The notes: generated by a model from the letters alone, not told the origin. Positions 12,389 to 44,659 are shown, counted from the first letter of the stretch. The stretch is DNA of 46,875 bases from a virus (IMGVR_UViG_3300032893_000089:1-46875), one strand, 5' to 3'. Numbers and translations: made by a program.

Positions 12389-12428
12389 AAAAATGTACGT
12401 GGATTACGACCAACATAATCCACGTACA
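12389..12428 (-). promoter_or_regulatory. Two-box CCACGT element forming a 13-bp hairpin plus T5 (terminator and/or promoter)
   Basis: On the minus strand TGTACGTGGATTA and TAATCCACGTACA form a perfect 13-bp inverted repeat around a 9-base loop, followed by TTTTT. Read as RNA this is a plausible intrinsic terminator behind the capsid genes, but the stem is only moderately GC-rich. The same boxes occur at 24825, 34224 and 44620, where they do not form this hairpin, so a second role as a phage promoter or operator site is likely. See the separate finding. Confidence 0.7.
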
Positions 12429-12436
12429 CCATCTCC

Positions 12437-13243
12437 TTAGCGCTCTTTCTGCGCAACAACAAAGTCCACAGTCATAGTCTTGGACGATGCCTGACCGGTC
12501 TGCACACCCAGGGTGGGTGCCAGATTGGCGGTAGACAGGGACAGACCAGTGACCTGAACACACCGACCTACCGTCGGGCTAACCGAGACACCCGCAGAGT
12601 TGACTGCGCCCGATCCCGACTGAGGTAGGTAACCAACCAGCTGCTGTCCAACGAAGGCGTTGAGATAGCCATTCCGATCAATATACCAACCAAGGTCGAT
12701 GTTGACAGCATTCGCAAAGAAGGTATTGTAGAATGCTACCGGGATCGCAGTAGTCGTAAGGGTGCTCGCAATAGCACTAATGATGTTGAGGACAGTACCA
12801 CCACTGGACTTCTGGAAGTATACACCGTCGGCAATGGATGTAAACGGTGTAGCATTGATCGAAATCAGACCCGCAATGAAAGCCGAGTTTGTGATATCGC
12901 TCAACTGAAGTCGCGTGAGGAAGAACGCCTTTTTGCCAGCCAGGGCCCCCTGCGGCAGGGTGAAACCTGCCGAGGGAGTCTGGATAGATTCAAAGTTGTT
13001 CGTCGCACCCGCAGTGGTGAACAGAGCCAGACCGCCGTCACCGGCGGCGTTGGCTACAGTGCCAGCACCACCAGCGGAGACGGTCCACAAGCCCGTCGCT
13101 CCGAGACTGTTGTCGAAGTCGTCACAGAACGCATGGTAAAAGACAGGATTCCCATAGCCAGAGTCAGCCATAGGGCCGTAGGGAAAATCCGTCGTAGAGC
13201 CGGCAGGAACCCGGCATGGCGGCGGACTGGGAGTGACACTCAT
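12437..13243 (-). CDS. Virion structural protein, lectin/jelly-roll-like
   Basis: 268 residues with a strong AAAGGAGGT site before ATG 13243. Beta-rich with FYHAFCDDFDNSLGATGLWTVSAGGAGTV near the start and regularly spaced aromatic/Gly strands (DGVYFQKSSGGTVLN; LGWYIDRNGYLNAFVGQQLVGYL), as in concanavalin-like domains. The gene follows the major capsid gene directly, and similar proteins in this position are head-surface or fibre proteins. Exact role unknown; the conclusion rests on position and fold-like pattern. Confidence 0.7.
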   Translation of the reverse strand: MSVTPSPPPCRVPAGSTTDFPYGPMADSGYGNPVFYHAFCDDFDNSLGATGLWTVSAGGAGTVANAAGDGGLALFTTAGATNNFESIQTPSAGFTLPQGALAGKKAFFLTRLQLSDITNSAFIAGLISINATPFTSIADGVYFQKSSGGTVLNIISAIASTLTTTAIPVAFYNTFFANAVNIDLGWYIDRNGYLNAFVGQQLVGYLPQSGSGAVNSAGVSVSPTVGRCVQVTGLSLSTANLAPTLGVQTGQASSKTMTVDFVVAQKER

Positions 13244-13254
13244 CGTGACCTCCT

Positions 13255-14178
13255 TTACGGGCCGTTAGAACCCAGAATCCCACGAGGATCGGTGTTACCA
13301 ACGCTGAACCGCATGTAGGTCGCGGCCAGAGCGTTCTTGGTTCCGAAATCGTTGTCCTGGTCAAAGAACGGCTTGTCGCGCCAGAACATCATCATACCGT
13401 GCGGGCAGTTGGTTCTAACAAACCAAGCGTGCGGCGAGGTATAGAAGTGATTGAGCTTAATGCCCTCCGGGAAGGCGTTGGTCGCCTTGAGAGCATTAAT
13501 ATCGTTGTTCGACGTGCCGGGCTGAAGTACCGACTTCAGAATCCGGTTAGCGTTGAACCACTCCTGGCGGGGAATATGCAGGGAACGCGGCAGTATAGAG
13601 ATGAACAGCCCACGGTCGGACTGAAGACCCATAGCCTGGATGCAGATATCCTCCAGAGAAGCCTCCAGAAGGTCTGCACTCGGGGTCAGCGCATTCGAGA
13701 ACGTACCACCCGTAGCATTAGGCTGAGCTGCACTACACAGCGTCTGACCGTTCGCATTAAGGTAGACCGCACCTGTGAAGGCATCGTTATAGACTGCCGC
13801 ACAGATCGTCTCGATAGTCTGACGAATCGAGAAAGCATTGCCCTCCGCACGAGACATCGAAACCTTCTCGTACAGATTGTCGCGCAGCTCTTCGTAGGTC
13901 ACGATGTAGCCAAGCGAATAGGCAATGTGAGGGTAGGTCGAAACTGCACCCTGGATTTCCGAGTCGTAGGTGACCTCACCGCCTTCGGGCTTGGCCGCAG
14001 CCAGTCCGAAGCCAGTAACCATCACGTCCTGCTCGTAAGCCTGGTCGGAATCCTCGACCTGATAGTCTGAGGTATATTCGACCGGGTGCTCGTCGTAGAC
14101 CTGCCCCCAGAAAGCGTGCACTCCAGGCCAAAGGGCCTTCGGATGTGCACCACTGGTAATTACGCCACCAACAGCCAT
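13255..14178 (-). CDS. Major capsid protein
   Basis: 307 residues behind AAGGAG. Located after portal, scaffold and two small head genes, as expected for the capsid protein. Sequence features: WGQVYDEHPVEYTSDYQVEDSDQAYEQDV near the N-terminus, an aliphatic central helix (VTYEELRDNLYEKV...SIRQTIETICAAVYNDAF) and a C-terminal stretch HAWFVRTNCPHGMMMFWR...FGTKNALAATYMRFSVG that resembles the P-domain end of HK97-fold capsids of the Mu gpT-like and related groups. It should build the head together with the 214-residue protein upstream. Confidence 0.82.
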   Translation of the reverse strand: MAVGGVITSGAHPKALWPGVHAFWGQVYDEHPVEYTSDYQVEDSDQAYEQDVMVTGFGLAAAKPEGGEVTYDSEIQGAVSTYPHIAYSLGYIVTYEELRDNLYEKVSMSRAEGNAFSIRQTIETICAAVYNDAFTGAVYLNANGQTLCSAAQPNATGGTFSNALTPSADLLEASLEDICIQAMGLQSDRGLFISILPRSLHIPRQEWFNANRILKSVLQPGTSNNDINALKATNAFPEGIKLNHFYTSPHAWFVRTNCPHGMMMFWRDKPFFDQDNDFGTKNALAATYMRFSVGNTDPRGILGSNGP

Positions 14179-14190
14179 GACTGATTCTCC

Positions 14191-14835
14191 TTAGATGCCG
14201 ACCGTGCCGGTGCCACGACCAAAGGTATGGTTATTGATGATAACCTCCCACTTCTGTGCACCGCCGCCTGTAGCCGGGCTGGTGACGAAGTTGTTGTCGA
14301 TCCGCTGCACGAACTTGAGGATCTTCAAGTTCAACGTAGCGGTAGCCGTGGACACAGTGCCTCCGTCAAGCATTGTGCCCGAGACTACCACGCCAGTCGC
14401 TGGAAGAGCATACACAATCGATGCGTTCTTGGACAGGGCGGTAGCTGAGGTGAGGTTGGTGGCGGAACCGCCTTCCTGGATCTCGTAGACGATGTTCGGG
14501 TCATCCGAAACAGCGGCATAGTAGATCTGGGTCTGAGCACCCGTGGGGCGGCTGATCTTGGACAGATCGTTCACGTTGATATAGGGGCCAAAGGGTAGCA
14601 GGCCTACCGCAACAATCACTCCAACCGCAGGGTTAGAACCTGCCGCCGTCAGTGCAATGTTGGGAATGCCCAGGGGGCTACCGCCGGTAGCCAGTGACAC
14701 AAGATCGCCCACGTAAAAAGGCGTAGCCACTGCTGCGGCGATAGCATAGGTGTTGACCTTGCCGTCGTACTTCGCACCGTTCAGGTATCTGAGAGGCGAG
14801 AGTCCGGAAGGCCGATTCGGGTTAACGAATGCCAT
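14191..14835 (-). CDS. Head decoration/stabilising protein candidate
   Basis: 214 residues, Gly/Thr/Val/Ala-rich, beta-type. Sits directly before the capsid gene. The repeated short strand pattern (TPFYVGDLVSLATGGSP; VGVIVAVGLLPFGPYI; IYYAAVSDDPNIVYEIQEGG) is what is usually found in trimeric capsid decoration proteins, whose first part is a G-D-x-V motif. No direct evidence of surface location; confidence is in coding status and head association. Confidence 0.68.
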   Translation of the reverse strand: MAFVNPNRPSGLSPLRYLNGAKYDGKVNTYAIAAAVATPFYVGDLVSLATGGSPLGIPNIALTAAGSNPAVGVIVAVGLLPFGPYINVNDLSKISRPTGAQTQIYYAAVSDDPNIVYEIQEGGSATNLTSATALSKNASIVYALPATGVVVSGTMLDGGTVSTATATLNLKILKFVQRIDNNFVTSPATGGGAQKWEVIINNHTFGRGTGTVGI

Positions 14836-14847
14836 TAGGGATCTCCA

Positions 14848-15408
14848 TTAAGGGGAAGTTGAAAAGGGCTTAGACTGTCGGCCAATCTTCGCCACTCGCT
14901 TGGGTCTGTTGAACAGTGCTGTTTTGACGTAGGCTGTTGCATCCTTAGACAACCGCCCATCCTTGCCAACGATCATCTCGTTTTCAAAGATAGACTGCAT
15001 CTTAGCGATGTTGTGGTTCTCGAGGACCTTTTGGTCCTCGTTGAAATACTCTTCGGGAATCTTCATCAGAGTCAGGCCTATGGGAGCCCCGTCGTCGGTC
15101 TTGCCGCCGACGATAGAGACGGCATCGCCCAGGTCAGTATTGCCGTTAGAACCTGGCTTCTGACCTGGATTGTTGATGTTCAGCGATACCTCGTGACGCT
15201 GGACCTTGACGTAACCAGCGTCCATCGCCTGGGCTACCTTGTCGTCGCGGAACCAGTGCAGGTGGAATCCAGGAATCTCTTGGACTACCTCCAGCTTGCG
15301 GCGAGGCGTGGACATTGGGATACGACGACGCTGGGTCGGTGTAGTCGTACCTGGCTTGTCAGCAACCGTGGACTTGGTAATGTTCCCATCAACTTGAGCC
15401 TGACTCAT
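14848..15408 (-). CDS. Conserved head-module protein
   Basis: 186 residues. After a disordered Thr/Pro-rich leader there is RRKLEVVQEIPGFHLHWFRDDKVAQAMDAGYVKVQRHEV, a signature (IPG-HLHW-R...A...GY) I recognise from proteins encoded between scaffold and capsid genes of many short-tailed phages; their function is unknown. The C-terminal half is basic (RPKRVAKIGRQSK). Leader M32 (MSTPRRKLEV) is an alternative start, but the upstream start fits the nine-base gap to the scaffold gene better. Confidence 0.7.
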   Translation of the reverse strand: MSQAQVDGNITKSTVADKPGTTTPTQRRRIPMSTPRRKLEVVQEIPGFHLHWFRDDKVAQAMDAGYVKVQRHEVSLNINNPGQKPGSNGNTDLGDAVSIVGGKTDDGAPIGLTLMKIPEEYFNEDQKVLENHNIAKMQSIFENEMIVGKDGRLSKDATAYVKTALFNRPKRVAKIGRQSKPFSTSP

Positions 15409-15417
15409 GACGATTCC

Positions 15418-16308
15418 TTACTTGAAATAAGTTGCAGCGTAAGACTTGCGCCATTCGGCTTCGGTCTTGAATTTCTTTCCCTGGCCGACGACCCGTTGGG
15501 CCTGGCGATCGCAGGCGGCTTTGGCCTCAGGCGGCAGGTCAGCATAGGACTTGCCCGTACCGTCAGTACCACCGGCGTCACCGCCGCCTCGACTGCCTTC
15601 CATTCGCTGAGCACCTCTAGTGTCAGCGATGCCAAAGCGCTCCTTGGTTTTCTGGGCAGCCAAGGCATAGCGCTGGCTAGGCGTGAGGTTTTTAGTCACC
15701 CCACTAGCATTGAGTTCTGCCAGGATTGCCACGCTTGCCGCAGCCATTACTTTGTCCGTTTCAAACCAAGGATTATCGCTAAGGAACTGCCTGAACTCAG
15801 GCGTGTTAACGGGGTCGGTCGGGATTGTTGAGGTAGTCTGCGCCCCACCGCCGGTTTTGTCAACAGCGAGCTTTTCCTTTTCTCGCCGCACCTTGTCGCG
15901 TTCGTCGCGCAGGCGCTCTTCCTCTTCAAAGTCATTCGCAGTACGAGCAGCCTTGATTTGGGCAGTCAGTTCGGCTTCCCTCCCAGACAGATCAACGGTC
16001 TTGGTTTCAACTACGGTTTCTTGCAGAGCATCCAGGGCGGCCTGTTGAGCACGCAGCTGGGCCTGAAGTGTGGCGTTCTGTTGCTTGACATTATCCAGGT
16101 CTGACCTAATGCGGTCCCGGTCGGTACGCAGGTGGCCGTTGATTTGAAGGTACTGGGTAGCGTCAACCCACTTCGCAGGGTCGCCCCGGAATTCCTCCTT
16201 GGGAACCCAACCAGCCTGGCGAGCTTGGGATTCAGCTTGAGCTGTAGTGTCGTCGGTACCCGCACCGTCGTTCATGCCTTTACGGACTTCTGTTTCGGTA
16301 GTGCTCAT
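15418..16308 (-). CDS. Capsid scaffolding protein
   Basis: 296 residues, highly charged and helical. Residues 28-55 (ARQAGWVPKEEFRGDPAKWVDATQYL) match the 'GWVPKEEF.GDP.KWVDA' block of phage scaffold proteins. A coiled coil follows at about 60-150 (KQQNATLQAQLRAQQAAL; FEEEERLRDERDKVRREKEKL), then a basic C-terminus (RVVGQGKKFKTEAEWRKSYAATYFK) suited to bind the capsid protein. Gene order portal, scaffold, capsid supports the call. The GroES-like gene ends two bases before it. Confidence 0.82.
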   Translation of the reverse strand: MSTTETEVRKGMNDGAGTDDTTAQAESQARQAGWVPKEEFRGDPAKWVDATQYLQINGHLRTDRDRIRSDLDNVKQQNATLQAQLRAQQAALDALQETVVETKTVDLSGREAELTAQIKAARTANDFEEEERLRDERDKVRREKEKLAVDKTGGGAQTTSTIPTDPVNTPEFRQFLSDNPWFETDKVMAAASVAILAELNASGVTKNLTPSQRYALAAQKTKERFGIADTRGAQRMEGSRGGGDAGGTDGTGKSYADLPPEAKAACDRQAQRVVGQGKKFKTEAEWRKSYAATYFK

Positions 16309-16309
16309 G

Positions 16310-16657
16310 CTAGGCTTCCTCGGTGATCTGGCAATAGATATCGCCGCAGTTCACCATTCGATACTTGCGGTATTCCTTGTTGGGGCCCTCCGGTAGGGTG
16401 CCGTTAACGATCTTCCCGGCGAGGGCGCCGATCATCACCTTGTCGCCTACCTTAGCCCTAGGCACGGATTCGTCGTTCCAGCACTCCGGTCCAATCTCCA
16501 GAACAATTGCGCGGGTCTCTACCATACGCGAACGTTCCTGGGCAGAAGGCGGAATAATCAGTCGTGTGGCCTGGAACTCCGGTTCATACGGAATACACAG
16601 GACCGAGTAACCCAAGGGCTTGAGGCCGGATCTATTCACTAGTGTCATCTGACTCAT
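16310..16657 (-). CDS. GroES-like co-chaperonin
   Basis: 115 residues, the size of a GroES subunit. Follows the GroES plan: LGYSVLCIPYEPE (beta strand of 'DRVLV'), a mobile-loop region RLIIPPSAQERSRMVET, TRAIVLEIGPEC (the 'GxVxAVGxG' strand), PRAKVGDKVMIGALAG (the 'VKVGDxVxF' strand) and a final NCGDIYCQI matching 'ESDILAI'. It would work with host GroEL in capsid folding; it lies directly between portal and scaffold. It overlaps the 97-residue gene upstream by 26 bases. Confidence 0.78.
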   Translation of the reverse strand: MSQMTLVNRSGLKPLGYSVLCIPYEPEFQATRLIIPPSAQERSRMVETRAIVLEIGPECWNDESVPRAKVGDKVMIGALAGKIVNGTLPEGPNKEYRKYRMVNCGDIYCQITEEA

Positions 16658-16925
16658 CCTTTTGCGGCGGTTCGCCGGTTAATGCTATACAGTACTGTTC
16701 GTAGTCTAGGTCAATCAACTCATTCAACTGTGCAATCGAAGCTCTTGCCTGGGCGTTGGCAGTATGGGTTTCAACGGGATCACTGGACTGAAAGGCTCCC
16801 GCCTCCCATTGCTCCCGAAGCATTTCCACTCCCACCTTGAGATACTCCATCATTCCCTGAGTTCCCGGATTGGCTTTCCAGTCTAGGAACTCCGCTTCCG
16901 TCAGGATTCTTTCCCTGCGTCTCAT
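16632..16925 (-). CDS. Small head-module protein overprinted on the portal gene
   Basis: 97 residues: MRRRERILTEAEFLDWKANPGTQGM..., then LREQWEAGAF and LNELIDLDYEQYCIALTG. Composition is that of a soluble helical protein, not of an accidental frame. An almost ideal site GGAGG lies five bases before the ATG. Its first 146 bases run through the last 49 codons of the portal gene in another frame, where the portal encodes only a Gly/Ser/Asn-rich tail. Similar small proteins follow the portal in other podophages; function unknown. Confidence 0.68.
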   Translation of the reverse strand: MRRRERILTEAEFLDWKANPGTQGMMEYLKVGVEMLREQWEAGAFQSSDPVETHTANAQARASIAQLNELIDLDYEQYCIALTGEPPQKDESDDTSE

Positions 16926-20489: not shown

Positions 20490-20508
20490 GAACTTCTTAG
20501 GCACAGGA

Positions 20509-20715: not shown

Positions 20716-20724
20716 TGGTAACTC

Positions 20725-21399: not shown

Positions 21400-21407
21400 A
21401 GTGACAC

Positions 21408-23384: not shown

Positions 23385-23387
23385 AGA

Positions 23388-24734: not shown

Positions 24735-24824
24735 TGCACCCCCAGGATGACCTAAAACGCCGTCGGTGTCAACAGGATTCGGCGGTCCGGCGGAAATCCT
24801 TGAGGATAAAAGAAGTACCACGAA

Positions 24825-24864
24825 CCATACGTGGATTATGCGGGGGATAATGCACGTGGATTAT
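24825..24864 (-). promoter_or_regulatory. Two-box CCACGT element upstream of the late operon
   Basis: On the minus strand: ATAATCCACGTGC, spacer TTATCCCCCG region, CATAATCCACGTATGG. The two direct copies of ATAATCCACGT begin 25 bp apart. Aligned without gaps it matches the 40-bp elements at 34224-34263 and 44620-44659. The inner CATAAT resembles a -10 box; no sigma70 -35 box is present at the right distance, which suggests an activator-dependent promoter. It lies 90 bp ahead of the small-terminase start and is the most likely late promoter. Confidence 0.65.
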
Positions 24865-25198: not shown

Positions 25199-25227
25199 TT
25201 GACAACCCACGTGGATAATGGGATAAC
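25199..25227 (+). promoter_or_regulatory. Promoter with CCACGT in the spacer, start of the rightward block
   Basis: TTGACA at 25199-25204, 17 bp, GATAAC at 25222-25227. The spacer carries CCACGTGGATAAT, the core of the recurring two-box element, placed right behind the -35 box just as in the promoter at 30592. The first gene starts at 25270. A sigma70-type early promoter overlapped by a phage operator is the simplest reading. Confidence 0.65.
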
Positions 25228-25269: not shown

Positions 25270-25812
25270 ATGGCACGGCTCTATACCATCAAGCGGTTGA
25301 TCGACACGGATGCCAAGCGTATCACAATGGTTTGCGTCGATCAGGATGGCAAACCCACCGGCGAACGGTTGGCGTTCGACATGTCCAAGGCCTCGGCGGC
25401 CAATGTCGCCTACGCGGCGTTGCACGGGTTCAACCAGCGCATCGGTGACGCCGGAGCGTTGGGGTTCAACAAGGACACCGGGCAATACGCCACGCCGGCG
25501 GAGAAATTCGCCGCGATGCAGCAAATCGTCGATCACATCGAATCCGGCAGTGATGATTGGGAACTCCCCCGCAGCGCAGCGGGTCCCCGGCTCGACTCCA
25601 CCATTGGCCTGTTAGTACGGGCCATGATGGAGGAGGATTCAACGAGGGACGAGGCCAAGGTTCGCGTATGGGCCAAGGCTCTCGACACGGTGAAACGGAA
25701 GGCTCTGTTGCGCAGCGACCGTCTCAGGGACATCGTTGCGCGGCTTGAGGCAGAGGCCACCGCTCAAGTCGATACCGAGGCTCTGTTCGAGGGACTGGAT
25801 TCGATCGAGTAA
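25270..25812 (+). CDS. Early protein, paralogue A, with C-terminal VDTEALF tail
   Basis: 180 residues with a CGAGG site; first gene of the rightward block. It is a diverged paralogue of the 194-residue protein at 30695: both have a helix of the type AALHGFNQRIGDA / AAHGAAQKIGDE, then a short linker, ST(I/L)...LV..., a charged helix ending RL..IV.RLE.E, and the tail VDT(E/D)(A/S)LF..L(D/E)S at the very end. Codons are strongly GC-biased, suggesting high expression. It is followed by a stable hairpin. A DNA-metabolism or regulatory role is inferred from its early position; I do not know a named family. Confidence 0.75.
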   Translation: MARLYTIKRLIDTDAKRITMVCVDQDGKPTGERLAFDMSKASAANVAYAALHGFNQRIGDAGALGFNKDTGQYATPAEKFAAMQQIVDHIESGSDDWELPRSAAGPRLDSTIGLLVRAMMEEDSTRDEAKVRVWAKALDTVKRKALLRSDRLRDIVARLEAEATAQVDTEALFEGLDSIE

Positions 25813-25915: not shown

Positions 25916-25932
25916 AAAATCCACGTACGATT
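25916..25932 (+). promoter_or_regulatory. Single CCACGT box inside the long inverted repeat
   Basis: AAAATCCACGTACGATT is in the same orientation as the boxes upstream of rightward genes and is followed after 12 bp by TAATCCC. It is a single, more degenerate member of the recurring element. Confidence 0.45.
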
Positions 25933-25983
25933 CACCAGTAATCCCAAAATACAAACCAACGGGCCTGAGACCCTCTAGTAGTG

Positions 25984-30591: not shown

Positions 30592-30620
30592 TTGACTCCA
30601 CGTACATTTCATGCCATAAT
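30592..30620 (+). promoter_or_regulatory. Promoter with CCACGT in the spacer
   Basis: TTGACT (30592-30597), 17 bp, CATAAT (30615-30620). The spacer starts with CCACGTACATTT, the same box as in the other elements, and an inverted box GTGACGTGGAC follows at about 30626-30636. It is the only promoter-like sequence in the 117-bp gap and precedes paralogue B. Confidence 0.72.
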
Positions 30621-30694: not shown

Positions 30695-31279
30695 ATGAAC
30701 GAAGCATCAGAAGCAACAGCCGAGACCAGGGCACCTGCCAAGGCTCGCGAGGTCGATAAGGTCCAGATGTCCGACGGTTCGACCGTGGAGTTCGTGGGCA
30801 AGCGCAAGTTGCTCAAGGAACCTGTACTGGATGGCGAACTGCCGGCGGTCAAGTTCCTGTTCCGGAACGGCAACGTGATCCTGTTCACCGTACCGGAGCC
30901 GCTGCTCGCACAGTTCGCAGCCCACGGGGCAGCTCAGAAGATCGGTGACGAGACCGCCGGTGAAGACGACGTGGACGACATGCAGCTGGCAGTCGAATCC
31001 ATCATCGAGCGACTCAATGCGGGTCAGTGGACCAAGGAGCGCGAGGGTGGTGGGTTCGGTGGGACCAGTACACTGATCCAAGCCCTGGTCGAGTCCTCGG
31101 GCAAGCCGGTCGAGGTCATCCGGGCCTTCCTCAAGACCAAGACCAAGGCCGAGAAGGACGCGATGCGAGCCAGTACCCGGCTCAAGCCCATCGTGGATCG
31201 GCTGGAGCAGGAGAAGGCCGCCAAGGCTGCTCATGTCGATACCGACAGCCTGTTCGCGGATCTGGAGTCTGTGGGCTGA
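30695..31279 (+). CDS. Early protein, paralogue B, with C-terminal VDTDSLF tail
   Basis: 194 residues. N-terminus VQMSDGSTVEFVGKRKLLKEPVLDGELPAVKFLFRNGNVILFTV (beta), then AAHGAAQKIGDETAG and GTSTLIQALVESSGKPVEVIRAFLKTKTKAEKDAMR, and the tail HVDTDSLFADLESVG. It shares domain order and tail with the 180-residue protein at 25270 and has its own promoter of the same class. Strong GC-biased codon use suggests abundance. Its stop codon is the first TGA of a ten-fold GGCTGA repeat, which is odd. Confidence 0.75.
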   Translation: MNEASEATAETRAPAKAREVDKVQMSDGSTVEFVGKRKLLKEPVLDGELPAVKFLFRNGNVILFTVPEPLLAQFAAHGAAQKIGDETAGEDDVDDMQLAVESIIERLNAGQWTKEREGGGFGGTSTLIQALVESSGKPVEVIRAFLKTKTKAEKDAMRASTRLKPIVDRLEQEKAAKAAHVDTDSLFADLESVG

Positions 31280-31333
31280 GGCTGAGGCTGAGGCTGAGGC
31301 TGAGGCTGAGGCTGAGGCTGAGGCTGAGGCTGA
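31274..31333 (+). repeat. Ten tandem copies of GGCTGA at the stop codon
   Basis: Sixty bases of GGCTGA repeated ten times, beginning with the last codon and stop of paralogue B. In the gene's frame every second codon is a stop (TGA); other frames read Ala-Glu or Arg-Leu repeats. It may expand or shrink by slippage. Number of copies should be checked in reads. Confidence 0.9.
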
Positions 31334-31562: not shown

Positions 31563-31636
31563 TGAGGGATCGTCTAACGGTAGGACAACAGGCTTTGGAC
31601 CTGTTTATAGTGGTTCGAATCCATTTCCCTCAGCCA
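31563..31636 (+). tRNA. tRNA-Gln (anticodon UUG) with encoded CCA
   Basis: Complete cloverleaf of 74 bases: acceptor TGAGGGA/TCCCTCA, D-arm GTCT...GGAC, anticodon arm ACAGG-CTTTGGA-CCTGT with TTG at 31595-31597, T-arm AGTGG-TTCGAAT-CCATT, discriminator G and CCA in the DNA. The U1-A72 pair is the glutamine identity element. It reads CAA and, by wobble, CAG; the phage uses many Gln in ejection proteins. tRNA genes are also integration hot spots, but no integrase is present. Confidence 0.95.
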
Positions 31637-32305: not shown

Positions 32306-32846
32306 GATCCGCGCCGCCGGCCCGTGTAAACCGGGCTGGCGGACGCTCCTCAAGGGCTTGGGCAAGACTGAGGCGGACGATGAGCCTTTGCCGTTCGCCA
32401 CCATCCTCGAGATCAACGGCTTGGACGATGCGCTGTGGTGCTGCCGCACCGTGCTTGGGCACGACCGCGAGTGGCGACTATACGCCGTATGGTGTGCGCG
32501 GCGCGTCGAGCATCTGATGACCGATTCGCGCTCCAAGGCTGCGCTTGATGTCGCTGAGAGATACGCCAACGGTGAGGCAACGGAAGAGGAGCTGAGAACG
32601 GCGCGGGCGGCGGCAGCGTGGACGGCGACGGCGTGGGAGGCGGAGGCGGATGCGGCGTGGGAGGCGGATGCGGCGTGGGAGGCGGAGGCGGCGGCGGCGG
32701 AGGCGGCGTGGGAGGCGGCGGCGGATGCGGCGTGGGAGGCGGCGGCGGCGGCGGCGGCGGATGCGGCGTGGGCGGCGGCGGCGGCGGCGGTGCGAGCTGC
32801 AGAACGTCAAGCGCAGGCTGCGAGGTTTCTGGAGGTGGTGTCGTGA
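32283..32846 (+). CDS. Ala/Trp-repeat cargo protein
   Basis: 187 residues from ATG 32283 behind AAGGAGC. The N-terminal half (PCKPGWRTLLKGLGKTEADDEPLPFATILEINGLDDALWC, AVWCARRVEHLM) is a known theme of proteins from phages and mobile DNA; the C-terminal 75 residues consist of AAWEA/ADAAW units, a long Ala-helix with Trp every five to eight residues. DNA there is GCG/GGC-rich tandem sequence prone to length change. Function unknown; the N-terminal part 'GLDDALW' is shared, so it is not a chance frame. Confidence 0.7.
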   Translation: MIYTTLNKIRAAGPCKPGWRTLLKGLGKTEADDEPLPFATILEINGLDDALWCCRTVLGHDREWRLYAVWCARRVEHLMTDSRSKAALDVAERYANGEATEEELRTARAAAAWTATAWEAEADAAWEADAAWEAEAAAAEAAWEAAADAAWEAAAAAAADAAWAAAAAAVRAAERQAQAARFLEVVS

Positions 32847-34177: not shown

Positions 34178-34201
34178 ATACCAAGCCTTTTAATTACTGT
34201 A

Positions 34202-34230
34202 TTGTATTGGGTCCGTCGGTGTGGTAATAT
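34202..34230 (+). promoter_or_regulatory. Promoter candidate at the end of the cargo block
   Basis: TTGTAT (34202-34207), 17 bp, TAATAT (34225-34230). The -10 overlaps the first box of the two-box element 34224-34263, so this promoter and the element could compete or cooperate. Confidence 0.5.
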
Positions 34231-34263
34231 ACGTGTATTACCCCTGGCATAACCCACGTATAC
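34224..34263 (+). promoter_or_regulatory. Two-box CCACGT element directly before a start codon
   Basis: GTAATATACGTGTATTA, then CCCCTGG, then CATAACCCACGTATAC. Aligned without gaps to the 24825 element it matches at roughly 29 of 40 positions. It ends three bases before ATG 34266, leaving no space for a Shine-Dalgarno sequence, so a transcript started from it would be almost leaderless or the element acts as operator. Confidence 0.65.
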
Positions 34264-34265
34264 TC

Positions 34266-34499
34266 ATGTCAATCCTTGACCAAATCCTAGCCGAAGCTCT
34301 CAAGGAGCACCCCTTACAGCGTAAGGTTATACAATACCCTGCGCCAGAACAGAAACGTTCTTCGATAAGGTCAATGCTAGCAGCTGACTCCATGGACGGA
34401 ATGCGATTCCGCTACTGGTTCTCCCGCCTCAAAGAGCGAGACCTGGACCAGTGGCGAGCCGAAGTTGATCGACAAATGCTGGAGACCAAGCCCAAATGA
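34266..34499 (+). CDS. Small early protein, unknown
   Basis: 77 residues from ATG 34266; no ribosome site is visible because the two-box element sits directly upstream. Helical, basic: SILDQILAEALKEHPLQRKVIQY...MRFRYWFSRLKERDLDQWRAEVDRQML. ATGA overlap with the next gene. Could be leaderless. Confidence 0.55.
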   Translation: MSILDQILAEALKEHPLQRKVIQYPAPEQKRSSIRSMLAADSMDGMRFRYWFSRLKERDLDQWRAEVDRQMLETKPK

Positions 34500-34675: not shown

Positions 34676-34824
34676 AAATCACATTCAACTGCGTCGGCTT
34701 CCACGACCGCCGTACTCTATGCTTGCGCTGGCTCGGTTCATCCCTGCAGCGCAAGCGATTCAAGCTGCGCCAAAAGCGCCCAGACCTACAGATCAGATCA
34801 CTCTACGGAGCCCAACGTGGCTAA
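34672..34824 (+). CDS. Very small basic protein
   Basis: 50 residues, ATGA overlap upstream and eight-base overlap downstream. KITFNCVGFHDRRTLCLRWL and a Lys/Arg-rich end. Support comes from coupling alone. Confidence 0.45.
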   Translation: MKITFNCVGFHDRRTLCLRWLGSSLQRKRFKLRQKRPDLQIRSLYGAQRG

Positions 34825-34999
34825 GCCCGCTAACGTCATCCGTCCGCGCAAGTTGACCATCCACTTACCAGAGGACCAGGCCACTCGTCTGGACCTCTAC
34901 CTCTGGTCTGAATCCCAGCAGCGTGTACCTCACGGGGCTTACCAAGCGTTTTTCATCGACAGGATCAAAGAGTTCTTTGATCGTATAAAGGAAGGCTAA
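34817..34999 (+). CDS. Ribbon-helix-helix-like small protein
   Basis: 60 residues with GTG start (CAACGTGGC). Short strand KLTIHLPEDQATRLDLYLW followed by two helices, the order of an RHH DNA-binding fold ('..TIHLPED.A..LD..'). Similar 60-residue proteins are frequent in phage replication regions. It is a second possible regulator. Confidence 0.55.
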   Translation: MAKPANVIRPRKLTIHLPEDQATRLDLYLWSESQQRVPHGAYQAFFIDRIKEFFDRIKEG

Positions 35000-35000
35000 G

Positions 35001-35213
35001 ATGTACTCCCCCGAAATCCAATCTCAAGTCTCTATCTGGCGTCAGAAGGCCATCGAGGGCACTCTGACTATGGACGAGATGAAGGCCGCAATCAAGATCC
35101 TGCGAGAGGGCCGTGAGGCCGCTCAACTAGCCTCTCGATCCTCGACCAGCCGTACCAAGAAGCCTGTCAACACCGACAGCCTGTTCAACGAACTCGACAG
35201 TCTCCTGGGCTAA
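35001..35213 (+). CDS. Small helical protein with C-terminal VNTDSLF tail
   Basis: 70 residues. Helix QVSIWRQKAIEGTLTMDEMKAAIKILREGREAA, Ser/Arg linker and the tail PVNTDSLFNELDSLLG. The tail is that of the two paralogues at 25270 and 30695 while the body is unrelated, so the tail behaves like a portable peptide. Its stop overlaps the next start (TAATG). Confidence 0.68.
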   Translation: MYSPEIQSQVSIWRQKAIEGTLTMDEMKAAIKILREGREAAQLASRSSTSRTKKPVNTDSLFNELDSLLG

Positions 35214-35389: not shown

Positions 35390-35419
35390 TTCTACAACAG
35401 TCTACTAAACGAGGCCAGC

Positions 35420-37717: not shown

Positions 37718-37765
37718 CAACGATTTCTTGTTCACACTGTAACTCAACCTAAAGGTAAATCTCAA

Positions 37766-38230: not shown

Positions 38231-38241
38231 GAGTCCTGGCC

Positions 38242-38454
38242 ATGACCAGAAACGACACAACCGAGAACAAGCTTCGGCGTCTCGCTATCGCCTATGGCGA
38301 AATCGCCCAGAAGCTGGACGAAGCCGAACTCGAGGAGGAGCACGAGGCGATTCGTGATGCTATTGATGACCTAGAGGCGGCTATCAAAGACGCCGAAGAG
38401 GCCATCGAGGAGAACGAAGATCCTCTGGAAGAAGATGAAGCTGACGACGAGTAG
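38242..38454 (+). CDS. Small acidic coiled-coil protein
   Basis: 70 residues, about 40 percent Asp/Glu: LDEAELEEEHEAIRDAIDDLEAAIKDAEEAIEENEDP...DDE. Single-transcript partner of the SSB candidate (11-base gap). Very acidic proteins can mimic DNA; this is only a possibility. A strong terminator follows. Confidence 0.6.
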   Translation: MTRNDTTENKLRRLAIAYGEIAQKLDEAELEEEHEAIRDAIDDLEAAIKDAEEAIEENEDPLEEDEADDE

Positions 38455-38469
38455 TTAGACTAGCCCCCG

Positions 38470-38499
38470 GGGCCGGGACTTACACCGGCCCTCTTTTTT
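38470..38499 (+). terminator. Strong intrinsic terminator
   Basis: GGGCCGG (38470-38476), loop GACTTACA, CCGGCCC (38485-38491), then TCTTTTTT. Textbook rho-independent terminator that ends the SSB transcript; the following genes may need read-through or an own promoter, which I do not see. Confidence 0.93.
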
Positions 38500-38516
38500 A
38501 GAACGAGGTAGGTAGA

Positions 38517-38711
38517 ATGAAAATTGTAGATCGCATTCACAAGGGCCGTCCTGCAAGGTTTGTTACAGTAACTTGCTCTAACCAGACAGTTAGAGAACTG
38601 GGTTACTTCACCGACGTATACGCTAAAGAAGACATCCCTCGTCTTGACAGGGCTATGCTAATTTCGATGGAGTGCCAGTTAGAACTAGATGGCTTGGTGG
38701 AGGTCCAGTGA
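38517..38711 (+). CDS. Small protein before the methyltransferase, unknown
   Basis: 64 residues behind GAGGTAGG. IVDRIHKGRPARFVTVTCSNQTVRELGYFTDVYAKEDIPRLDRAMLISME. Stop overlaps the GTG of the next gene. No family recognised. Confidence 0.6.
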   Translation: MKIVDRIHKGRPARFVTVTCSNQTVRELGYFTDVYAKEDIPRLDRAMLISMECQLELDGLVEVQ

Positions 38712-40045
38712 AAATCCACTCTATAGCCGCAGTAGATATAGTCGTCGAACCCAACCGCCAGCGTAAGGTTTTCGACGAGACCGCTATCATAGACCTCGCC
38801 GGTTCGATAACCCAACTAGGTCTAATCCACCCAATAGTCGTCCGTCAATTCGAGGACCAGATAATTCTGGTGGCCGGTGAGCGTCGCCTCAAAGCCCTAG
38901 ACTACATCTGGAACTTCGGCGACAAGGTCTCTTGTGGTGAGTTCGAGTTCCCCGAGGGCCAAGTCCCATGTCTATTCCTAGGTGAAATCGACCCCATCGA
39001 TGCCTTTGAAATCGAACTAGAGGAGAACATCCGCCGTGAAAACATCTCCTGGCAAGACAAAGCCCAAGCGACGGCCCGACTTTTGGAACTCCGTAACGCA
39101 CAAGCTAAGGCTAATGAGGAAGGACCCTTCGATCACATTGACCTCGCTAGAGAAATTTCAGGAGTCCCTGATACCACGCCCAGTTCTGCGATCGCGCCTC
39201 TCACCGAAGCTCTGCGCGAGGACCTCATCCTTGCGCGCAGCCTCGGGGACTCAGATGTTGCCAAAGCTTCATCCAAGTCCGAGGCTCTCAAAGTCGTCAA
39301 ACGCAAAGAAGAGGCTCGACGCAACGTTGAACTGTCTAGAACAGTGGGCGCCGTCTTCAACTCTAGTCTGCACACGTTGCTGCGAGGCGACTGTCTGTCT
39401 CTTATGCAAGGGCTATCTGACCAGACTTTTGACGTTATACTGAGCGATCCTCCCTACGGCATTGATGCCCAGGAATTCAACAATTCTGACGGTCTGGCGC
39501 CTGGCCCAGGCAGTCATTTTTACGATGACTCTTACTCGAACTGGTCCAACCTCATGCACGGGTTTGCTGTCCAGGCCGACCGCCTCACCAAGCCCCAAGC
39601 TCATCTATACCTATTCTGCGACATCGACCGATTCCATGAACTCAAAGGAATCTTCTCCGAGCAAGGCTGGACCGCCTTTCGCACCCCATTGATCTGGTTC
39701 AACCCCGGCGGTATGAGAGCACCCTGGCCGGACCAAGGCCCTCAGCGCAAATATCAGGTAATCCTCTATGCAGTTAAAGGCAAGCGTCCTGTTACCCAAC
39801 TTCGTGGTGATGTCCTCGCCTACCCGAACGACCCAAACCAAGGACACCCGGCGCAAAAGCCGGTCGCCCTACTTACAGATCTTCTGCGCAGATCCGTCCG
39901 GCCGGGTGATACTGTACTCGATCCCTTTGCAGGCTCAGGCTCTATCTTCGTGGCGGCGCATTCGCTCAAGGTCAAGGCCACGGGCATAGAACTAGACGAG
40001 GCGGCGGCGGGAATAGCAGCAAGGCGGTTGGGAGAACTCAAATGA
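38708..40045 (+). CDS. ParB-like domain fused to a DNA methyltransferase
   Basis: 445 residues from GTG 38708 (GTGA). Residues 1-120 are ParB/Srx-like: NRQRKVF, GSITQLGLIHPIVVR, GERRLKAL (57-64), EENIRRENIS. Residues from 225 are a beta-class amino-methyltransferase: DPPYGID at 247-253 (catalytic motif IV), KPVALL and the later FAGSGSIF (SAM-binding motif I) with motif order IV before I. It may methylate adenine N6 or cytosine N4 at a sequence I cannot predict, protecting phage DNA. Such fusions are common in phage replication modules. Confidence 0.88.
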   Translation: MKIHSIAAVDIVVEPNRQRKVFDETAIIDLAGSITQLGLIHPIVVRQFEDQIILVAGERRLKALDYIWNFGDKVSCGEFEFPEGQVPCLFLGEIDPIDAFEIELEENIRRENISWQDKAQATARLLELRNAQAKANEEGPFDHIDLAREISGVPDTTPSSAIAPLTEALREDLILARSLGDSDVAKASSKSEALKVVKRKEEARRNVELSRTVGAVFNSSLHTLLRGDCLSLMQGLSDQTFDVILSDPPYGIDAQEFNNSDGLAPGPGSHFYDDSYSNWSNLMHGFAVQADRLTKPQAHLYLFCDIDRFHELKGIFSEQGWTAFRTPLIWFNPGGMRAPWPDQGPQRKYQVILYAVKGKRPVTQLRGDVLAYPNDPNQGHPAQKPVALLTDLLRRSVRPGDTVLDPFAGSGSIFVAAHSLKVKATGIELDEAAAGIAARRLGELK

Positions 40046-40356
40046 AGCACAAACCCGGCTACAGATACGCTCGCATGAATACTATTCACGAATACGAACT
40101 ACTCCCAATCTCAATGGATATTGGGGTTACTTCGGTAAGAGAAGTCGTCATGCGTCTAGGCCCTGCTACCCAGTACGACATTCACGCCGGCTGGCGAGCC
40201 TACGAAACCGCCCGTGTGCTTCAGCAAGACGTAATGTCTAAGCAGCTAGACAATCCGTTTGCGCCTATCGTAAATGTTAGCTACGAACTAGCTCTCAAAG
40301 AGGACGAATGGTATATAGTTGCTAACGACTATGCAGTTGGCTGTAGTGGATTCTAA
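40042..40356 (+). CDS. Unknown protein after the methyltransferase
   Basis: 104 residues, ATGA overlap. HEYELLPISMDIGVTSVREVVMRLGPATQYDIHAGWRAYETARVLQ and a C-terminal beta part. No family recognised. Confidence 0.6.
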   Translation: MKHKPGYRYARMNTIHEYELLPISMDIGVTSVREVVMRLGPATQYDIHAGWRAYETARVLQQDVMSKQLDNPFAPIVNVSYELALKEDEWYIVANDYAVGCSGF

Positions 40357-40359
40357 GCC

Positions 40360-40533
40360 ATGATGCTCCGCTACATCCTATTCGACCCTAGACTATTCAA
40401 CTGTATCCTTCTAGTCCTCAACCTCTGTTCTGCCTTGCGCTGGGCCTTGGCAGGGCGGTGGTGGAACACTGTTTATTGGCTGGCGGCATTCACCCTGACA
40501 TTTGTGATTATGTTTGGTAGGAGAATTACCTAA
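40360..40533 (+). CDS. Small membrane protein, two transmembrane helices
   Basis: 57 residues from ATG 40360 to TAA 40533, the stop overlapping the next ATG (TAATG). Hydrophobic segments NCILLVLNLCSAL and YWLAAFTLTFVIMF separated by a basic turn (RWALAGRWWN). It may be a host-membrane modulating protein; not likely the holin, which lies in the lysis group. Confidence 0.6.
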   Translation: MMLRYILFDPRLFNCILLVLNLCSALRWALAGRWWNTVYWLAAFTLTFVIMFGRRIT

Positions 40534-41576
40534 TGGTCCGCCCAGATGGTCCCATCCCTGCCAGCATCATGATCGTCGGTGAGGCCCCCGGTGCTGACGA
40601 AGAAATCAAGGGCATTCCCTTCGTCGGGACCTCGGGCCAGGAACTCAACCGCATGCTCCATGAAGCCGGTCTCACCCGCGCCGAGTGCTTCGTCACCAAC
40701 GTCTGCCGCGTTAGGCCCCCCAATAACGACATCTCTTCCTTCATCGCCAAGACCAAAAAAGAAATCACCCCCAAGCACATCAAGATATTCGACAAGCACG
40801 TCCTTCCTCCCATCGTCGAAGGTCTCGAGCTACTCAAAAAGGAGATTGCCCTTGTTCAACCTAAAGTCATTCTGGCCTTGGGCAACACCCCCCTCTGGGC
40901 CCTCACCACCCGCTGGGGAATCACAAAGTGGCGTGGGTCCCTTCTCTCCACTGCACCGGATTACGGCCCTGCCGTCACGGTTATACCTTCATACCATCCA
41001 GCAGCTATTCTCCGACAATGGGATTGGAGAGCTATTGGAGTTCGAGACTTCCGTCGCGTTCGCGACATCCGAGATTTGGGTCCACCTGAAGCTCCTCGAT
41101 GGAATTTTCGCATCGGACCCAGTTACGATCAAGCTATTTATGAGCTTGACAGCCTTCGAGAACGTCTCGACAGTGGATCTATCCGTCGTATATCTTTTGA
41201 TATCGAGACTCGTGCAGGGCATATTGCTTGCGCCGGACTTAGCTGGTCGCCTGTTGACGCGATCTGTATACCCTTTATGTCGTTTGAACGACGATCAGGA
41301 TATTGGACATTGGACGAAGAGTCGAACATCGTCTGGCGAGTATATCTTATACTTACGCACAAAAATGTAGAGGTCGTCGGGCAGAATATCCTTTACGATG
41401 CACAGTATACTTATCGTTACTGGCACTTTGTTCCACGTGTCGTGCAGGATACGATGATCGCTCAGCACGCTGTATTTTCCGCCCTTCCAAAAGGACTAGA
41501 TTTTCTCGCTTCAATGTACTGTCGTTACTACGTCTGGTGGAAAGGTGAGGGAAAGGAGTTTTATGGCAATCTGTGA
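40533..41576 (+). CDS. Uracil-DNA glycosylase domain fused to polymerase 3'-5' exonuclease domain
   Basis: 347 residues. Residues 10-175 look like a family 4/5-type uracil-DNA glycosylase: GEAPGADEEIKG (16-27), PFVGTSGQEL, VILALGN and SYHPAAIL (153-160). Residues 215-347 are the DnaQ-like exonuclease of family A polymerases: SFDIET (D223, E225; Exo I), NILYDAQY (D289; Exo II) and a later VQDTMIAQH. The protein ends at GKEFYGNL, where related unsplit polymerases continue with a short link into DE..LW.YNC, found at the start of the gene at 41963. The HNH gene starts 14 bases before this stop. Confidence 0.78.
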   Translation: MVRPDGPIPASIMIVGEAPGADEEIKGIPFVGTSGQELNRMLHEAGLTRAECFVTNVCRVRPPNNDISSFIAKTKKEITPKHIKIFDKHVLPPIVEGLELLKKEIALVQPKVILALGNTPLWALTTRWGITKWRGSLLSTAPDYGPAVTVIPSYHPAAILRQWDWRAIGVRDFRRVRDIRDLGPPEAPRWNFRIGPSYDQAIYELDSLRERLDSGSIRRISFDIETRAGHIACAGLSWSPVDAICIPFMSFERRSGYWTLDEESNIVWRVYLILTHKNVEVVGQNILYDAQYTYRYWHFVPRVVQDTMIAQHAVFSALPKGLDFLASMYCRYYVWWKGEGKEFYGNL

Positions 41577-41973
41577 AGTTGAAGGATGCCGCCGAAAGCT
41601 ATTGGCTAAAGGAATGTGTGCTTTCCACTACAAGCGAAAGAGATTTGGTCGCGATCTAACTGCACCTTTTCGGCCCTCTGCCATCTTACCCAAGTCGCAT
41701 CCTGTCTACGTCGCGTGGACAAACATGAAGACACGCTGTGATAATCCAAACAGCACTCAGTATAAATGGTACGGTGGCCGAGGGATAACTTATGACAAAC
41801 GCTGGAAGTGGTTCGAGAACTTTTATGCTGACATGTTTAACAGTTGGCAAGAAGGTTTAACTCTCGATCGTAAGAACAGTAACAAGAACTACGGTCCAGA
41901 CAATTGCGTCTGGTCTACTCACCAGGAGCAAGCAAACAATCGTAATCCTAGAGGTTATCTCAATGGCGCTTGA
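41563..41973 (+). CDS. HNH-type homing endonuclease splitting the polymerase gene
   Basis: 136 residues from ATG 41563 behind AAGGAG (spacing four). Begins CEVEGCRRKLLAKGMCAFHYKR, a zinc finger; then HPVYVAWTNMKTRCDNPNSTQYKWYGGRGI, WFENFYADM and LTLDRKNSNKNYGPDNCVWSTHQEQANNR, the pattern of phage HNH-like endonucleases with the short 'LDR-n-n-N-Y-P-NC-W-T--EQ-NNR' core. Stop overlaps the following ATG by 11 bases. It most likely spread into the polymerase gene; the intervening 400 bp are almost all coding, leaving little space for a full group I intron. Confidence 0.82.
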   Translation: MAICEVEGCRRKLLAKGMCAFHYKRKRFGRDLTAPFRPSAILPKSHPVYVAWTNMKTRCDNPNSTQYKWYGGRGITYDKRWKWFENFYADMFNSWQEGLTLDRKNSNKNYGPDNCVWSTHQEQANNRNPRGYLNGA

Positions 41974-43414
41974 TGAAAGAATCCTTTGGCATTACAATTG
42001 TTTAGATTGCGTCTACACCGACGAGGTCGGTCTGGAGTTACTAAATGTCGTTGAGCGCCTCGGACTTACCCAGGTCCACGAATTCCAACAGCGAATGTTC
42101 TGGCCCGTGCTGCAAGCTATGCAGCGTGGAGTACGAATTGATATACCTCGACGCGATAGACTCATCGTCGAAGTACACAGTGAAATTGAAAAGAGACAAG
42201 CCTTTCTTACCACTGTACTTGGCGGCCCCTTCAACCCTCAATCTCCCAAACAGATGCACGCTTTATTCTATGAGGATCTCAAACTTCCAGTGCAGCTCAA
42301 ACGAGGCAAGAAAGGCGAACCCTCCAGACCCACTCTCGACGACGACGCTATCACCAAGCTGGCTGCTAAAGAGCCTCTCATACGTCCACTTACTAACGCT
42401 ATCGCAGATATACGAACACTTAGTAAATTCCTATCCAACTTCCTTGAGCGCCCGCTTGATGTCGATGGAAGAATGCGTTGCGCGTACAACATTGGAGGAT
42501 CTGAGAGCGGAGCTAGCGCACCGAAAACCTATAGACTCAGTTCTTCCGAGAATGCGTTTGGTTCCGGAACCAACCTCCAAAACATCCCCGGCGAAAAGTC
42601 CAAGTCCATGGGTAAAGCTGCTGCCAGAACTGGCCTCAGCTTCATTGGTGATCCCTACCAGTTTCCTAATATCAGGGAAATTTTCATACCAGACCCTGGC
42701 TATACTTTTTTCGATATGGACTTGGAGCGTGCTGATCTGTTTGTGGTTTGTTGGGAAGCCGAAGACGAACAGCTAAAGACCGCCATGCGCCTCGGAGTGG
42801 ATATCCACCTGCTCAACGCTTTCGTTATCACAGGCAAGGAACCGCCCGACCTATCAGAACTAGTCGAGTCCCATCCCAAGTACCTCGACTGGCGGCGTCC
42901 AATGAAAATGACTAGGGAATTTGCAAAGGTATTTTGTCATGGCACTAACTACGGCGGCAGACCCCCGACAATGGCTCAGCATACTGGCCGTTCAATTTCA
43001 GAGATTGATCGAGCGCAGCGGATCTGGTTCGGTGCGCATCCTGGAATTAAGCGATGGCACGATAGAATTAGTTTGCAAGTTCGGTCCAAGCGTTACGTGG
43101 AAAATAGATTCGGCTATCGCTGGTACATCTTCGACCGAGTTGACTCTATCCTTCCCGAAGCAATCGCTTGGATACCCCAGTCAACCGTCTCAGTCGTAAT
43201 CAACAAGATCTGGGAGCGCATCTATCGTGAAATACCAGAAGTGCAAATCCTCATGCAGGTGCATGACTCGTTGCCGGGACAACTTCCTAGTGATCAAGTG
43301 GATAGCCTTATTCCACGGATACGTGAAGCCTCCAAAATCGTCGTCCCATATGATGATCCCCTTGTCATTCCGATCAACATTAAGACTTCCACTAAGTCCT
43401 GGGGCGACTGTTGA
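41963..43414 (+). CDS. Family A DNA polymerase, polymerase domain
   Basis: 483 residues. Starts ALDERILWHYNCLDCVYTDE, normally located between the exonuclease and polymerase domains. Polymerase motifs: NLQNIP (204-209), motif A FFDMDLERADLFVV (D251/D253), motif B REFAKVFCHGTNYGG (R318, K322, Y330), motif C QVHDSL (D435). Without an own proofreading part it must pair with the 40533 product or rely on splicing. A GAGG site eight bases before ATG 41963 supports separate translation. Confidence 0.87.
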   Translation: MALDERILWHYNCLDCVYTDEVGLELLNVVERLGLTQVHEFQQRMFWPVLQAMQRGVRIDIPRRDRLIVEVHSEIEKRQAFLTTVLGGPFNPQSPKQMHALFYEDLKLPVQLKRGKKGEPSRPTLDDDAITKLAAKEPLIRPLTNAIADIRTLSKFLSNFLERPLDVDGRMRCAYNIGGSESGASAPKTYRLSSSENAFGSGTNLQNIPGEKSKSMGKAAARTGLSFIGDPYQFPNIREIFIPDPGYTFFDMDLERADLFVVCWEAEDEQLKTAMRLGVDIHLLNAFVITGKEPPDLSELVESHPKYLDWRRPMKMTREFAKVFCHGTNYGGRPPTMAQHTGRSISEIDRAQRIWFGAHPGIKRWHDRISLQVRSKRYVENRFGYRWYIFDRVDSILPEAIAWIPQSTVSVVINKIWERIYREIPEVQILMQVHDSLPGQLPSDQVDSLIPRIREASKIVVPYDDPLVIPINIKTSTKSWGDC

Positions 43415-43417
43415 ATC

Positions 43418-44623
43418 GTGAGGCATTTTGACGACTGGCTAACCGCGTATACTCAATACGCCTCTTATTCTGAGGCCCCCGCCAGGATGCACTTCTGGTC
43501 AGGGGTCTCTGCCATCGCCGGTGCTTTGAGGAGAAAAGTATGGCTACCAATGGGTTATTTTTCTTGGTTTCCCAATTTCTACATCGTCTTGGTCGCGCCC
43601 CCTGGAATCGTAAGCAAGTCTACCACTGCCGCCATTGCGATGAATCTTTTGAGGAAAGTACCTGGCGTAGTATTCGGCCCGGACGTAGTGACGTGGCCTG
43701 CCCTGGTAACTGCTTTTGCAGGAGCAAACGAAGCCTTCGAGTATCACGATGGAGTCGAGACTACGTGGATGGCCCAGTGTGCCTTGACACTCGAATCCAG
43801 TGAGTTTGGCAACCTAGTCAATCCTGCCGACCGCGATATGATAGACCTACTGGTTAATCTATGGGATTCTAAACAAGGCGCTTTCACGAAGGTAACTAAA
43901 GGCAATGGAACAGATCAAGTTGAAAATCCTTTTATCAATCTTATCGCATGTACAACTCCAGCATGGATTGCAGGTAATTTTCCGGAGTACGTCATTGGAG
44001 GCGGTTTCACTAGCAGATGCCTATTCGTCTACGCTGACGAGAAGGCTAAACTCATCGCTTACCCGATGGATCACATGCCTAGAGACATCGCTCAACAAGG
44101 ACAAAAGCTAGTCGAGGACTTGATTGAGATAGCTAAGATTACTGGTCCCTACCACCTGGACCCTGAGGCCAAGCAGTATGGTAAAGAATGGTACGACCAT
44201 CACTACAAAAACCGTCCACCAGAGTTGGACGACGACAGGTTCGGCGGTTACCTCGCGCGCAAGCAAACCCATATACACAAGACTGCCCTCGTTCTTTCAG
44301 CTGCGCAGAGAGATGAGCGGGTCATTACACGTGATGACCTGGCGCTCGCCAATACGATGGTTACAGACCTCGAGTTGGATATGGCAAAGGTATTTGCTAG
44401 AATTGGGCGAACAGAGACCTCGGTACAAGCAGAACGCTTTATTCGCTTCGTCCACAAGCGAGGCCAGGTTTCCTACGCCGCCGCCTATGCCTATGTCCAC
44501 TCAGCTTTCCCGGATTCGCGTAATTTCGAGGCGATTGTCAAAGGTGCACAGTCGGCTGGCTTTATCTCTATAGTTCCAGGTCCTGGTAATAGTTCTATTT
44601 TGGTAGCTAGGCAACCAAAATAA
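43418..44623 (+). CDS. DUF3987-like replication ATPase / primase-helicase candidate
   Basis: 401 residues from GTG 43418. DWLTAYTQYASYSEAPARMHFWSGVSAIAGALRRKVWLP and FPNFYIVLVAPPGIVSKSTTAAI: the 'LVxPPGIxxKST' P-loop of a phage/plasmid ATPase group (DUF3987 relatives); Ser replaces the usual Gly in the loop, as in others of this group. Walker B-like ALTLESSEFGNL and PFINLIACTTPAWI follow. A C-terminal wHTH-like region (FIRFVHKRGQVSYAAAYAYVHSAF) could bind DNA. The last replication gene before the two-box element at 44620. Confidence 0.68.
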   Translation: MRHFDDWLTAYTQYASYSEAPARMHFWSGVSAIAGALRRKVWLPMGYFSWFPNFYIVLVAPPGIVSKSTTAAIAMNLLRKVPGVVFGPDVVTWPALVTAFAGANEAFEYHDGVETTWMAQCALTLESSEFGNLVNPADRDMIDLLVNLWDSKQGAFTKVTKGNGTDQVENPFINLIACTTPAWIAGNFPEYVIGGGFTSRCLFVYADEKAKLIAYPMDHMPRDIAQQGQKLVEDLIEIAKITGPYHLDPEAKQYGKEWYDHHYKNRPPELDDDRFGGYLARKQTHIHKTALVLSAAQRDERVITRDDLALANTMVTDLELDMAKVFARIGRTETSVQAERFIRFVHKRGQVSYAAAYAYVHSAFPDSRNFEAIVKGAQSAGFISIVPGPGNSSILVARQPK

Positions 44624-44659
44624 CCCACGTATGTTATGGTTCGTATAATCCACGTACAG
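44620..44659 (+). promoter_or_regulatory. Two-box CCACGT element at the end of the replication genes
   Basis: ATAACCCACGTATG, spacer TTATGGTTCG, TATAATCCACGTACAG, with perfect -10 hexamer TATAAT (44645-44650) and no -35 match. Forty bases with the same spacing as the elements at 24825 and 34224. It precedes the 83-residue gene at 44673 (AGGAG site). Confidence 0.7.

Follow-up and report, generated by a model that had tools for sequence, protein, structure and literature searches.

Ribbon-helix-helix (RHH) proteins are widespread, and Arc and Mnt of phage P22 are small phage-encoded examples that act as repressors on sigma70 promoters. Operators present in many genome-wide copies, with a specificity that varies between related phages, are represented by the stoperators of cluster A mycobacteriophages and by the lambdoid operators. 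In CopG, base-specific contacts are made by the strand residues Arg4 and Thr6 (PMC8251345), and AmrZ of Pseudomonas is an RHH regulator with an 18-bp site over its own promoter and an AT-rich linker (PMC3325190). Here we analyse a recurring box element in the 46,875-nt virus stretch IMGVR_UViG_3300032893_000089:1-46875 (the window). Comparison with related phages indicates that the boxes are most probably operators of an autoregulated phage repressor, the RHH-like product of gene 34817-34999, at promoters used by host sigma70.

The window contains four pairs of 18-bp boxes and three single boxes (starting at 25202, 25916 and 30593), all intergenic. The boxes are imperfect palindromes with ACGT in the middle and an ATAAY flank, and the centre-to-centre spacing is exactly 25 bp in all four pairs. 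The pairs and one of the single boxes are as follows, box coordinates being those of 18-mers.

12390..12432, minus strand: two-box element A, boxes 12390-12407 and 12415-12432, within the 54-bp gap upstream of gene 11999-12382.
24822..24864, minus strand: two-box element B, boxes 24822-24839 and 24847-24864, upstream of a small-terminase-like gene (late block).
34224..34266, plus strand: two-box element C, boxes 34224-34241 and 34249-34266, at the head of the gene run to which the regulator gene belongs.
44620..44662, plus strand: two-box element D, boxes 44620-44637 and 44645-44662, with TATAAT at 44644 between the boxes.
25916..25933, plus strand: single box reading AAAATCCACGTACGATTC, between 25812 and 26299.

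Element C is about 0.6 kb upstream of the regulator gene, and element D follows the DUF3987 stop (44623) and precedes gene 44673-44924. The original prediction for this DNA had described a two-box CCACGT element at seven places. The sites are real, and each of the ten top matches to an 18-mer centred on ACGT and built of RTAAYCC half-sites falls at one of them, but they comprise four two-box elements and three singles; the box coordinates had been up to 4 bp off, and the first box of the 34224 element, given as CCACGT, actually reads GTAATATACGTGTATTAC. The fixed direction assigned to ATAAYCCACGT stands only in part because the boxes are imperfect palindromes, and their apparent direction partly reflects which half-site is better kept. 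The 18-mer sites number 10 at 9 or more of 14 half-site matches (1.1 expected, maximum 5 in 60 shuffles), 8 at 10 or more (0.23 expected from shuffles) and 5 at 11 or more (0.017 expected), counts that overstate independence because the consensus was derived from those very sites. The box at 30593-30610 is a weaker copy. By itself, the hexamer CCACGT is not enriched in the window (25 found, 20.05 ± 5.11 expected).

No near DNA relative of the window was found in the phage collection, and a direct search for its paired motif gave no match elsewhere in IMG/VR, since each phage has a core of its own. The motif is absent from the portal-based relatives (L008-L034), a set that was replaced by early-region relatives gathered via the DUF3987 protein (gene 43418-44623), with identity of 59-71% for all but one. 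Many of these have a two-box element of like design immediately 3′ of the DUF3987 stop, with a different core: GGCGCC, CCCGGG, TACGTA and GGCC are among those seen there, and GCGC, CCGG, CATG, GACC and GAAC stand around the same ATAAY stretch. Synteny with the window holds for the larger relatives, several of which carry copies of their own core after DUF3987, after the capsid gene, close to the small-terminase-like gene and close to where the regulator's gene run begins. Since own cores occupy equivalent syntenic places, the frame is conserved and the core is swapped. Conservation in relatives, set beforehand as a test of the prediction, thus holds for architecture and position and fails for the CCACGT sequence. 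In the relatives, half-sites of the own core occur at about 8 times the frequency of control palindromes placed in the same register, and the intergenic preference that had been claimed recurs, with 28/68 own-core half-sites in non-coding DNA against 4/51 for controls (p=2.8e-5, with a crude, mechanical gene mask).

The relatives that carry the element also conserve a small protein, encoded in the window as follows.

34817..34999, plus strand: RHH-like regulator gene, 60 aa (MAKPANVIRPRKLTIHLPED...), with K12, T14 and H16 as the presumed base-reading face.

Within its predicted strand RKLTIHLP, positions 12, 14 and 16 are hypervariable among relatives, and 13 and 17 are conserved. Residue 14 varies with the core of the element: Thr pairs with ACGT, Asn with GCGC, Glu with CCGG and Gln with CATG, and less supported pairings are Lys with GACC, His with GAAC, Ser with ACAC and Gly with CGGT. 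The regulators of G003 (Gln) and G014 (Lys) differ at this residue at 81% protein identity. A first comparison had K-T-x going with ACGT and K-N-x with GGCGCC. For L092 (K-N-C), named in advance as a test, GGCGCC was predicted, and it was found inside a TTGACG-18-CATTAT promoter with a second copy, GGGCGC, downstream. When cores were read by hand, column 14 ranked first among all regulator columns and column 12 third. No clear element was seen in MW202489, though a homologue of the regulator is present (reading residue Lys).

For an automated test a second set of relatives was added, and cores were read after the DUF3987 stop in the old and new sets, blind to the protein. The element was chosen by its ATAAY flanks and by agreement between the two half-sites, a picker that replaced one based on repeated hexamers, dropped as too noisy. 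Column 14 was the sole significant column in the 21 lineages with a clear element and proteins under 85% identical (r=0.62, partial 0.61, family-wise p=0.0002; 0.29 for the runner-up), and again when lineages with unclear elements were added to make 33 (r=0.31, family-wise p=0.011), in permutations that take lineages as exchangeable. As a control, about 2,100 columns from seven further proteins conserved in the phages gave a best r of 0.48, in near-invariant columns. Among the later-fetched relatives alone, Asn goes with a GCGC half-site in 6/6 against 0/13 others (p=3.7e-5), Thr with ACGT in 3/5 against 0/14 (p=0.01), Gln with CATG in 1/1 and Glu with CCGG in 2/4. L166 has the K-T-H triple of the window at just 56% identity, and its DUF3987 stop carries CTACGTGG...CCACGTAG, which the automatic picker missed because the flanks are degenerate. 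The operator class with a phage-encoded regulator that the original prediction had proposed is thereby supported, and of its two candidates the protein at 34817 is strongly favoured, its presumed DNA-reading residue covarying with the core across phages.

Kinship does not explain this match, since on a DUF3987 tree (some cores hand-assigned) the changes of residue 14 are near random, at least 16 against 18.7 for shuffled labels. Residue and core are both different between the sister phages L203 (Thr, ACGT) and L174 (Asn, GCGC), and on supported branches 3/3 agree for Thr and 3/3 for Asn, too few independent pairs for a sign test.

The boxes also overlap promoters. Two sigma70-type promoters reported earlier in the window were confirmed, both with 17-bp spacing.

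25199..25227, plus strand: TTGACA-17-GATAAC, with box 25202-25219 spanning the −35 and the spacer, upstream of the early gene 25270-25812.
30592..30620, plus strand: TTGACT-17-CATAAT, with the weaker box 30593-30610 over the −35 and the spacer, upstream of 30695-31279.

Many lineages of relatives have the order −35, box 1 inside the spacer, ATAAY as the −10, and box 2, in agreement with the earlier reading of xATAAY as a −10. Such promoters read TTGACA CCATGGGATAATTACGC AATAAT CCCCATG in L201, TTGACA ATGTGTTCACAATATGT CATCAT ACCGTGTTCAT in L088, and TTGACA TTATACGTACGTTATAT TATAAT GGTATACGTA in L152 (on the same contig as L080). There are 20 sigma70 promoters whose spacer carries the own core and which have another copy 23-26 bp off, where 5.9 would be expected with core and protein unrelated. 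About ten of these precede the regulator gene, on its strand and at a distance of 0.4-1.1 kb, which suggests autoregulation.

We propose that the 34817-34999 product is an RHH-like, probably dimeric protein, one dimer of which would occupy each box. The beta-ribbon of the dimer would read the central tetranucleotide (ACGT in the window), with residue 14 setting the tetranucleotide and residues 12 and 16 adding specificity at adjacent bases. The tetranucleotides under residue 14 are mostly palindromic, which fits one dimer per box and is consistent with an intertwined RHH dimer that would form a two-stranded antiparallel sheet. The N-terminal arm of the family, which is M-x-R-P or G-R-P and AT-hook-like, might touch the AT-rich flank. 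An ATAAY lying between two boxes spaced by about 25 bp would serve as the −10 of a host-sigma70 promoter, and because the boxes bracket this −10 the bound protein is proposed to block RNA polymerase; repression is the simplest reading of the box layout. The protein would thus control its own synthesis and repress early, middle and late units globally, the positions of the candidate operators make it plausible that they time both gene blocks, and protein and operators would have been re-specified together many times in related phages.

The RHH fold is predicted from the strand pattern and from an AlphaFold2 monomer model (predicted local distance difference test score 89.7), in which helices 19-29 and 41-59 follow an extended N-terminal stretch. 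No strand is assigned in this monomer, and the strand may form only in the dimer and hence go unseen. That alternating strand residues read operator bases, the hallmark expected of an RHH protein, is indicated by the covariation rather than by structure. A local alignment with the CopG strand puts CopG Arg4 and Thr6 on K12 and T14 (40% identity, E=0.017, probability only 2.7%, the short chain limiting the test). A Pfam scan of 34 family members returned only RHH_5, at E=0.091, in one, and a profile comparison of the 34817 protein with Arc gave no match. In BFVD it is matched by two unnamed viral proteins, and the three matches in genome contigs are all in metagenome-assembled contigs.

Several points weigh against this account. 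Window pairs A, B and D have no good −35. The code has exceptions in the His class (L082, L117) and in the Asn class (L032), and no element was located for L221 or for L093 (K-T-T), whose 6.4-kb contig does not contain the expected TACGTA. Support for the Glu class comes mainly from G016 and L195, because element D is terminator-like in L185, L202 and L218. The first automatic test, with repeated hexamers, was weak, column 14 being third by r and first by partial r. A Foldseek search of the PDB with the 60-aa monomer found no match, and the family is unmatched in Pfam, PHROGs and PDB sequences, tests that short chains limit. The genes on either side of element D are convergent in some relatives.

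Of the other readings, it is unlikely that the same protein, bound to the boxes, activates or works as an early-to-late switch at pairs A, B and D and represses at the sigma70 promoters. These pairs do have a −10-like ATAAY with the consensus −35 absent, element B precedes late genes, and AmrZ, also an RHH protein, both activates and represses (PMC3325190). In relatives, however, box 1 lies in the −35/−10 spacer and box 2 at the start region, so that bound protein should block polymerase.

We hold it very improbable that the boxes serve a different reader, either the helix-turn-helix (HTH) protein 26764, also named as a regulator in the original prediction, or the ParB_N-methyltransferase fusion 38672-40045, with the boxes as parS-like or methylation sites. 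Homologues of the former occur in just 6/21 element-carrying lineages. The latter is conserved in 21/21 lineages and contains a ParB_N domain, and parS also has a CACGTG centre, but its best column reaches only r=0.39 (family-wise p=0.40) and is near-invariant. The ParB/parS idea was rejected, as the protein consists of ParB_N and an N6/N4 methyltransferase with no HTH match, and no column tracks the core.

There is likewise little chance that the boxes are the arms of an RNA hairpin or bidirectional terminator stem. Element D does resemble a bidirectional terminator in L185, L202 and L218, where the two-box element after the DUF3987 stop coincides with an inverted repeat between A and T runs, so that operator and terminator may be merged in these three, and its place between convergent genes recurs in several relatives. 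The window pairs, however, have no T run, single boxes within sigma70 spacers cannot form a two-box hairpin, every box is already its own palindrome, and a hairpin leaves the covariation with a protein residue unexplained. Least credible is a promoter class of a phage-specific RNA polymerase or of the special host sigma factor suggested earlier: the element recurs upstream of transcription units and several copies lack a −35, but no such gene was matched by Pfam among the large window proteins scanned (not every small open reading frame (ORF) was scanned), ordinary sigma70 −35/−10 boxes frame the operators in many lineages, the core varies from phage to phage while the flank stays, where a shared polymerase would give the reverse, and the core covaries with residue 14 of another protein.

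Beyond an autoregulated repressor at sigma70 promoters, we tentatively consider it possible that this large uncultured, perhaps strictly lytic phage group uses a fast re-specified 'barcode' repressor, in which a strand residue and all operator cores would shift jointly under a near one-residue-to-one-tetranucleotide beta-ribbon code. No integrase was met among the window proteins scanned. Joint re-specification perhaps lets co-infecting relatives escape, or impose, mutual shut-off, and the question arises why regulator specificity shifts so often without evident lysogeny. We know of no general rule that ties RHH strand residues to operator bases. Dozens of lineages share the operator frame with a swapped core, and a residue-base rule can therefore be read from environmental genomes. 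An unannotated phage protein family of about 60 aa gains a testable predicted function, and recurrent intergenic elements in a large environmental phage group are accounted for.

The gene next to the regulator gene is its neighbour in relatives as well, and its product is possibly a partner of the regulator.

35001..35213, plus strand: conserved 70-aa gene directly after the regulator gene, with no family match.

Elsewhere in the window, two ORFs (40533-41576 and 41963-43414) make up the family A DNA polymerase and are separated by a small ORF (41545-41973), perhaps a homing-endonuclease insertion; relatives encode the polymerase in a single ORF of about 2.5 kb. The fusion of ParB_N with an N6/N4 DNA methyltransferase at 38672-40045 is conserved in nearly all relatives. 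The early block contains a tRNA-Gln (TTG) gene at 31563-31636, and a scan for 24-bp spacing met short-period repeats (GGCTGA hexamers at 31274-31310 and a CGCCGC-rich stretch at 32670-32760). An ATP-grasp protein (phosphoribosylglycinamide synthetase-like) is encoded at 1718-3061, inside the structural gene block.

The open-licence literature yielded no description of this element or code. Stoperators and lambdoid operators are read by HTH repressors in temperate phages, whereas the boxes here are palindromic and paired, with a predicted beta-ribbon reader. AmrZ differs from the 34817 protein in being bacterial, in binding as a dimer of dimers with half-sites 5 bp apart, and in activating as well as repressing. 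Arc acts at a single control region in a temperate phage, whereas in the window at least seven sites are spread over the early and late blocks, and we know of no family of re-specified Arc-operator pairs. CopG resembles the 34817 protein in its very small size, in its strand (RLTITL against the predicted KLTIHL), in having its contact positions aligned with those that are hypervariable and covary here, and in a palindromic operator over a promoter with self-regulation, which is predicted for 34817. It differs in having no detectable family-level sequence match and in operator dimers that lie close together, as against boxes 24-25 bp apart around the −10; the 34817 family is also unlike CopG in its hypervariable reading face across relatives and in its N-terminal R-P/GRP arm. 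We regard the operator-regulator system as new but as belonging to a general kind that is known; its reader family is unannotated, and its natural recognition code is unusually clear.

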